From Allostella vacuolata (GTDB lineage: Bacteria; Pseudomonadota; Alphaproteobacteria; ATCC43930; Allostellaceae): a stretch of 64,000 nt of DNA. The DNA is taken from positions 1 through 64,000 of the forward strand of contig AP019702.1 of NCBI GenBank assembly GCA_006739055.1, given 5' to 3'. How positions within the stretch are numbered: the first letter of the stretch is position 1; each line of letters opens with the position of its first letter. This document shows, in pieces, positions 44,512-47,739 of this stretch. A program made the position numbers and the translations under genes. The notes under the pieces are model-generated. The model was not told where the DNA came from. It did not search any database and worked only from the letters and a program-made list of their open reading frames with translations.

Positions 44512-44544
44512 ACCGGCCGTCCGGATGGGGTCCGGACGGCCGGT
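44512..44544 (-). terminator. Strong hairpin terminator after acnA
   Basis: A perfect 14-base-pair stem ACCGGCCGTCCGGA / TCCGGACGGCCGGT with a 5-base loop starts 7 bases beyond the acnA stop. No T-run follows. It should separate acnA from the DUF1223 gene. Confidence 0.75.
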
Positions 44545-44551
44545 CACCCGA

Positions 44552-47238
<2,687 letters not shown>

Positions 47239-47245
<7 letters not shown>

Positions 47246-47303
47246 GTTATCTTTGTTTGCGTTCTACTCTCACGCTTATGGCGGTGTTTCTGGTTTTTTG
47301 ATT
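47239..47303. other. Possible decayed inverted adapter copy at an assembly join
   Basis: This AT-rich 65-base block is unlike the rest of the window. Its beginning aligns loosely with the reverse complement of the Tn5 mosaic end plus adapter (CTGTCTCTTATACACATCT): CGGGCACG then TTAT, with several T-to-G-like changes. Its end (TTTTGATT) mirrors the start of the adjoining P5 sequence. The length is close to the 70 bases of a full adapter. I read it as a low-quality inverted copy placed head to head with the clear adapter. If it is instead native, it is the acnA leader. Confidence 0.5.
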
Positions 47304-47373
47304 AACGCTACGGCGACCACCGAGATCTACACTATCCTCTTCGTCGGCAGCGTCAGATGGGTATAAGCGACAG
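47304..47373 (+). other. Illumina Nextera i5 adapter embedded in the assembly
   Basis: The 70 bases are P5 (47304-47332, with CGGCGACCACCGAGATCTAC intact), the 8-base i5 index TATCCTCT (47333-47340), the Nextera read-1 segment TCGTCGGCAGCGTC (47341-47354) and the Tn5 mosaic end (47355-47373). Only four substitutions separate it from the known oligonucleotide: two in P5 and two in the mosaic end. The order and length are exact. It is library-preparation sequence, not genome, and marks a false join or an untrimmed contig end. Confidence 0.97.
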
Positions 47374-47387
47374 AGCCCGGGCCGGGG

Positions 47388-47411
47388 CTGGCCGGCCCTC
47401 AGGCCGGCCAG
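47388..47411 (-). terminator. Hairpin after the small secreted-protein gene
   Basis: A perfect 10-base-pair stem CTGGCCGGCC / GGCCGGCCAG with a CTCA loop lies 17-40 bases beyond the stop of the 103-residue secreted-protein gene. The last genomic sequence before the adapter (47374-47389) holds another short GC inverted repeat. Confidence 0.6.
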
Positions 47412-47427
47412 AAGTGATCGAAAGGGC

Positions 47428-47739
47428 TCAGTAGCCGTTCCAGTCGCGCTTTTCGCGGTTGATGCGGTGGCTCTGGCGATTCTGCGCGTCGCGGATGCGC
47501 TGCCGCTCCCATCGGCTCACATGGCCGTCGGCCTTGGCCCGTCGCTCCATGCGGTGGACGCGGCGCTGGCCCTGGTCGAGCTTCCAGGCCTCCTGTGCCG
47601 ACAGGGTGCCCGAGCGGTAGCCCTGCTCGATCCGGCGGTCCTGGATCGCCTGGCGGCGATCGATGCCGGGCGTGCCCGACTGGGCGAAGGCCGGCGCGGC
47701 GATGGCGGTCAAGAGGACCGCCGCAAGAATCGAACGCAT
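47428..47739 (-). CDS. Small secreted Arg/Gln-rich protein of unknown function
   Basis: A 103-residue protein with a signal peptide (MRSILAAVLLTAIAAPAFAQ) and a very basic, Arg- and Gln-rich mature part (IDRRQAIQDRRIEQGYRSGTLSAQEAWKLDQGQRRVHRMERRAKADGHVSRWERQRIRDAQNRQSHRINREKRDWNGY). I chose the ATG at 47739 because AGAGGAGCC precedes it. Similar small exported proteins occur in alphaproteobacteria without known function; the TLSAQEAWKLDQGQRRV segment suggests helical repeats. No cysteine or enzymatic motif is visible. I see nothing convincing in the 179 bases between it and the Rieske gene. Confidence 0.78.
   Translation of the reverse strand: MRSILAAVLLTAIAAPAFAQSGTPGIDRRQAIQDRRIEQGYRSGTLSAQEAWKLDQGQRRVHRMERRAKADGHVSRWERQRIRDAQNRQSHRINREKRDWNGY

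Follow-up and report, generated by a model that had tools for sequence, protein, structure and literature searches.

An internal Illumina Nextera i5 adapter beside acnA in the chromosome record of Stella vacuolata

The region upstream of acnA

The stretch of DNA analysed here (the window) comprises the first 64,000 nucleotides of AP019702.1, the chromosome record of the star-shaped bacterium Stella vacuolata. Between the aconitase gene acnA and a gene for a small secreted protein, the window contains a block of 70 bases (47304-47373) in which the Illumina P5 oligo, an i5 index, the Nextera read-1 primer part and the Tn5 mosaic end (ME) follow one another in the right order and at full length (29+8+14+19 bases; Table 1). 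The ME is a Tn5-derived end used in the Nextera kit. The oligo names and sequences assigned to the 70 bases are those that we take to be the Nextera ones, and the index TATCCTCT is presumably S503/N503 of the Nextera XT set. These oligos were confirmed by sequence collections, the pattern of P5 end, index and primer part being present in at least 119 stretches of GTDB contigs. Only four of the 62 fixed bases are changed (58/62 match): two of the five outermost P5 bases and two ME bases. A complete Nextera i5 adapter with four substitutions had been reported here in a preliminary description of this DNA, and its coordinates, order and lengths are right.

Such a match is not expected by chance. 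The next-best place for the full adapter in the 64-kb window has 29 mismatches, and the window has a single ME with at most three mismatches, whereas none of 100 dinucleotide shuffles has one. Meanwhile, a uniform-base estimate gives about 3e-25 expected occurrences per window for at most four mismatches in 62. The block at 47304-47373 is a Nextera assembly artefact and not a biological feature.

Table 1. Features of the window between acnA and the small secreted-protein gene, with their coordinates
Feature	Coordinates	Strand	Remarks
acnA (aconitase)	44552..47245	-	coding sequence intact; GTG start 47243-47245
Read-end noise beyond P5	47247..47303	-	A-rich at read-strand start; has, with the adapter, taken the place of native intergenic DNA
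Illumina P5 oligo, 29 bases	47304..47332	+	2 substitutions, outer end
i5 index TATCCTCT	47333..47340	+	exact
Nextera read-1 primer part TCGTCGGCAGCGTC	47341..47354	+	exact
Tn5 mosaic end	47355..47373	+	2/19 bases substituted, at positions 6 and 14 (read-strand numbering, starting next to the clean DNA)
Native intergenic remainder, clean side	47374..47427	.	holds GC-rich hairpin
Small secreted-protein gene	47428..47739	-	103 aa from inner ATG; conserved in 3/3 congeners; 119 aa from 47787 in the ORF list

The foreign stretch is larger than the 70-base adapter and extends over 47247-47373 (127 bp). On the read (minus) strand, eight of the first ten bases past P5 are A, and a GC content as low as 38.6% is reached by just three of the 63,944 57-mers of the window, namely those starting at 47247-47249 (window mean 71.2%). 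According to the alignment with congeners, the native sequence on the left ends at about 47246, the base next to the intact start codon of acnA; this border had previously been put at about 47238, and the noise that begins at 47247 is foreign as well. A constant artefact length of 127, which is the largest k of the assembler, was considered and dropped, as the second site described below measures about 131 by its BLAST borders and the tail in a congener appears to be shorter. On the clean side of the block, a perfect 10-pair GC-rich hairpin (47388-47411; -18.2 kcal/mol as DNA, z -2.47, with one of 200 shuffles folding as well) is a likely site of short-read drop-out.

In all three congeners, a homologue of the secreted-protein gene lies directly upstream of acnA on the same strand. 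The homologues show identities of 85, 68 and 57% over 103, 82 and 101 residues, and the spacing between the two genes is 160, 146 and 143 bases, as against 182 in the window. Among the loci of the other 26 relatives, many of which hold little upstream sequence, one weak match to the secreted protein was obtained (E 0.26), and as far as the compared sequences go the pairing seems to be known for this genus only. For one of these congeners the assembly was made differently, with Canu and Pilon (PMC6687932). Because the adjacency is conserved in 3/3 congeners, the order of acnA and the secreted-protein gene can be trusted, and the earlier claim that their neighbourhood is unsupported is not upheld. 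The encoded secreted protein is small and basic, with a weak match to DUF533 that falls below the curated cut-off.

The block has changed the intergenic region itself. Fifty-five intergenic bases are native in the window, and the 127 foreign ones stand for about 88-105 native bases. A GGAG motif precedes the acnA start in 3/3 congeners and is missing from the window record; the acnA ribosome-binding site is among the native bases replaced. The artefact join is local, with foreign bases taking the place of native intergenic bases and no distant regions being linked.

Adapter copies in the Stella records and in other assemblies

The genomes of S. vacuolata ATCC 43931 (AP019702), Stella sp. ATCC 35155 (AP019701) and S. 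humosa ATCC 43930 (AP019700) originate from one study, in which Nextera XT libraries were sequenced as MiSeq 2x300 reads, a library type and a read length that allow read-through (PMC6687932). Unicycler hybrid assembly was used for S. vacuolata and Stella sp. ATCC 35155, and Canu and Pilon for S. humosa; all three genomes were polished with Pilon, the reads were deposited as DRA008500, and adapter trimming is not mentioned (PMC6687932).

The source genome (one contig of 5,834,761 bases) gave 23 matches to the adapter up to E 10, of which three are clear copies (E <=1.1e-13). The other 20 have E >=0.19, and the best of them, once aligned, lacks the ME. The second clear copy (near 2,398,033, minus strand) has 5/62 mismatches and the index TATCCTCT, and the third (4,425,344-4,425,407) has 15/62 mismatches and the index TACCCTCT, one base off TATCCTCT. 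Stella sp. ATCC 35155 (5,339,096 bases) carries one clear, one degraded and one partial copy (2,967,871; 3,586,083; 4,614,766). The clear copy has the exact index AGAGTAGA and three mismatches in all, and is preceded by ten T, which are ten A on the read strand. In the degraded copy 17/70 bases differ from the adapter with index AGAGTAGA, and the truncated one consists of the primer part and the ME only, with four ME errors and neither P5 nor an A-rich tail; the two degraded copies of this strain are compatible with index AGAGTAGA. In S. humosa (5,832,650 bases) no adapter was found at up to three mismatches, and its best BLAST match (E 0.0078), which lacks the ME and has a native-looking flank, is not an adapter. 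At up to three mismatches the pattern also hit three places in the draft genome G003 and, apart from two adapters, three in ATCC 35155; all three in G003 and two of the three in ATCC 35155 have at least 30 mismatches to the full adapter and were rejected.

The index is uniform within a genome and different between congeners, and thus follows the library, as a barcode does. Together with the anatomy of the adapter and the copies sharing one index, this bears out the view of the preliminary description that the segment is a library remnant and cannot be natural sequence. Only i5 adapters, and no i7 ones, are represented among the six Stella copies; at up to three mismatches, the source genome has no i7/P7 remnant. 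A longer i7 query gave one weak match in each of three genomes (E 0.001 to 0.6); these lack the ME and differ at 25-29 of the 58 fixed bases, and we took them as chance. Five Stella copies reach P5, and the first ten bases past it contain 8-10 A in four of them and six A in the degraded fifth.

At the second site of the source genome (2,398,033-2,398,163), both flanks match one continuous congener gene, 119-129 bases apart, and S. humosa has 119 native bases where the source record has 131. The intact gene encodes a CHASE2-guanylate cyclase (779 aa in S. humosa), of which relatives have intact copies. In the source record, two in-frame stops inside the artefact separate the CHASE2 portion of the gene from the cyclase portion, both still recognised by Pfam. 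At the third site the three congeners gave short matches only, and there is no alignable relative. The clear copy of ATCC 35155 may lie within a single RTX-like gene.

For comparison, we used 121 adapters from at least 119 stretches of GTDB contigs, many of which come from the same samples and are hence not independent. Among the matches listed, 20 different index words occur, with TATCCTCT in 16/121 and AGAGTAGA in 7/121; for 120 of the 121 adapters listed, the nearest contig end is at most 209 bases away and P5 faces it, and all 27 listed tails with at least 25 bases past P5 have 7-10 A in the first ten. The window copy resembles these draft contig-end remnants in the order of the oligos, the index set, the outward P5 and the A-run followed by noise. 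However, whereas 120/121 of the listed remnants sit at contig ends, that of the window is internal in a closed chromosome, bears ME errors and has replaced native bases. Another parallel is the 3.9-Mb record of Gordonibacter sp. Marseille-P2775 (LT827128.1), with an internal Nextera i5 adapter at about 480,024-480,054; this one differs from the window copy in its index (AAGGAGTA), its single ME mismatch and the lack of A-rich noise past P5. No adapter was found in the plasmid collection and the E. coli genomes searched. The same adapter is also present at bases 29-87 of a faecal phage record (MT836720.1), near the start of the record.

Origin of the block

Taken together, the published method, the conserved order of the genes, and the anatomy, copies and index pattern of the block make it almost certain that the block is an assembly artefact, produced by 3' read-through when a short Nextera XT fragment was sequenced on an Illumina MiSeq. 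The order of clean DNA, ME, primer part, index, P5 and A-rich sequence, taken with the control tails, is the signature of reading past the end of a short fragment. Which read was involved, how it escaped trimming and at which assembler step it was incorporated can be proposed as follows. A read would have left its insert (the clean DNA from 47374 rightwards) and continued into the ME, followed by the primer part (14 bases), the i5 index, P5 and finally A-rich noise. With this tail left untrimmed, a short-read contig may then have come to a dead end in it at the GC-rich hairpin, and Unicycler would have joined this dead-end contig to the acnA contig, leaving 127 foreign bases for about 88-105 native ones. 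We infer that two short-read contigs probably met at the block. In this respect the earlier suggestion that the flanks come from two different contigs may well stand, and the synteny speaks against its wider meaning, a link between distant regions. The further suggestion that an automated pipeline carried the artefact into a finished record is borne out by the copies in two Unicycler genomes (PMC6687932).

The presence of adapters in both Unicycler genomes and their absence from the one assembled with Canu and Pilon points to the assembly route without proving it, this being one contrast among three strains. The available sections of the Unicycler paper describe dead ends as problematic for bridging and give k as at most 127; they also state that long-read consensus is used as the bridge where there is no graph path. 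As judged from those sections, bridging by long-read consensus should have closed the gap with native bases, which counts against the proposed assembler step. Other observations count against read-through. There are no i7 copies, though i7 adapters are to be expected when the other mate reads through; all copies share an error at ME position 6 (see below); and the truncated copy of ATCC 35155 is without P5 and A-rich tail. In the titles and the opening parts of the abstracts of the literature on adapters left in assemblies, no account of the adapters of this genome was found.

The rewriting of local stretches is within the reach of Pilon. An origin of the artefact in Pilon polishing, and not in the short-read graph of Unicycler, would fit with the polishing of all three Stella genomes, but S. 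humosa was treated in the same way and has no adapter. S. humosa is one strain, whose reads were perhaps trimmed differently, and we consider a Pilon origin unlikely, if still deserving of some weight. A false join, in which the adapter would have linked two distant regions and made acnA and the secreted-protein gene neighbours in the record only, is very improbable. Adapter remnants are known to carry a risk of chimaeric joins, and a foreign block does separate the flanks here; however, both genes are adjacent in 3/3 congeners, with the same orientation and similar spacing, and the flanks of the second site (2,398,033) likewise match one continuous congener gene, 119-129 bases apart.

Still less probable, to an extreme degree, is that the block is real DNA of the culture, i.e. 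a construct, Nextera-tagged or engineered, that had integrated into the chromosome of the stock used for sequencing. The three sites do lie in a single closed contig, but their tails are low-complexity read noise that differs from site to site and replaces native DNA, the two stocks carry two different library indices, and errors rise towards the outer P5 end, as they do in late sequencing cycles. A natural repeat, such as a native transposon end of the Tn5 family, which the 19-base ME, derived from Tn5 ends, and the several copies in the genome might call to mind, is next to impossible, given that P5, index and primer part are man-made, that the index is constant within a genome and different between congeners, that S. 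humosa has no copy, that the window holds a single ME with acnA and the small secreted-protein gene as neighbours in place of paired inverted ends around a transposase, and that, where an insertion would have left the host DNA complete with a short target duplication and insertion-type flanks, native bases are missing without duplication (about 88-105 here, 119 at the second site).

Mosaic-end errors and effects on the records

Under the read-through explanation, the ME is the part of the adapter that is read first, though the six Stella copies have 2, 2, 3, 3, 5 and 4 errors in it. In the three cleanest copies the ME has 7/57 errors, as against 0/123 in the adjoining 41 bases (primer part, index and inner P5; Fisher p 2e-4). 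This contrast is missing in the noisy copies, of which the third copy of the source genome has 13 errors in the other 51 bases and the degraded congener copy has 12. Among the 120 control MEs in the matches listed, 99 are perfect, 12 have one error and nine have two or more. Two or more ME errors are thus seen in 6/6 Stella copies and in 9/120 of the listed controls, which are not independent (Fisher p 1e-6); like for like, with only copies that passed the same exact pattern, the comparison is 3/3 with 9/120 listed and again non-independent controls (p 7e-4). In addition, 6/6 Stella copies have G or C for T at ME position 6 (read strand), where 3/120 of the listed controls have an error; such sharing exceeds the prediction for independent errors (about 3e-4 for any shared position).

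The simplest reading of these data is survivorship, in that probably only error-bearing reads escaped trimming. The default adapter stringency of Illumina is 0.9, and a trimmer tolerating about one mismatch in 19 would have removed the reads with a good ME. We see an even chance that this extends to other genomes, namely that internal adapter scars of about 50-130 bases, standing in place of native DNA, are present in closed hybrid genomes for which the short reads were imperfectly trimmed. Such scars would be systematically degenerate because only reads with at least two ME errors escape trimming, exact-adapter screens would under-detect them, and in reference genomes they could fake gene breaks and erase promoters.

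The significance of the block lies in data hygiene. AP019702 is affected at three sites, with a foreign region upstream of acnA, a falsely split CHASE2-cyclase gene and a third damaged site, and AP019701 has three more such places, so that, with the window copy, the two sister records of the same study contain six copies in all. Work on acnA regulation or on pseudogenes of Stella that starts from these records would be misled. An open reading frame of 926 aa (44525-47305, plus strand), antisense to acnA, enters the noise with its 3' end and meets its stop at 47305; it is most likely a high-GC shadow frame.
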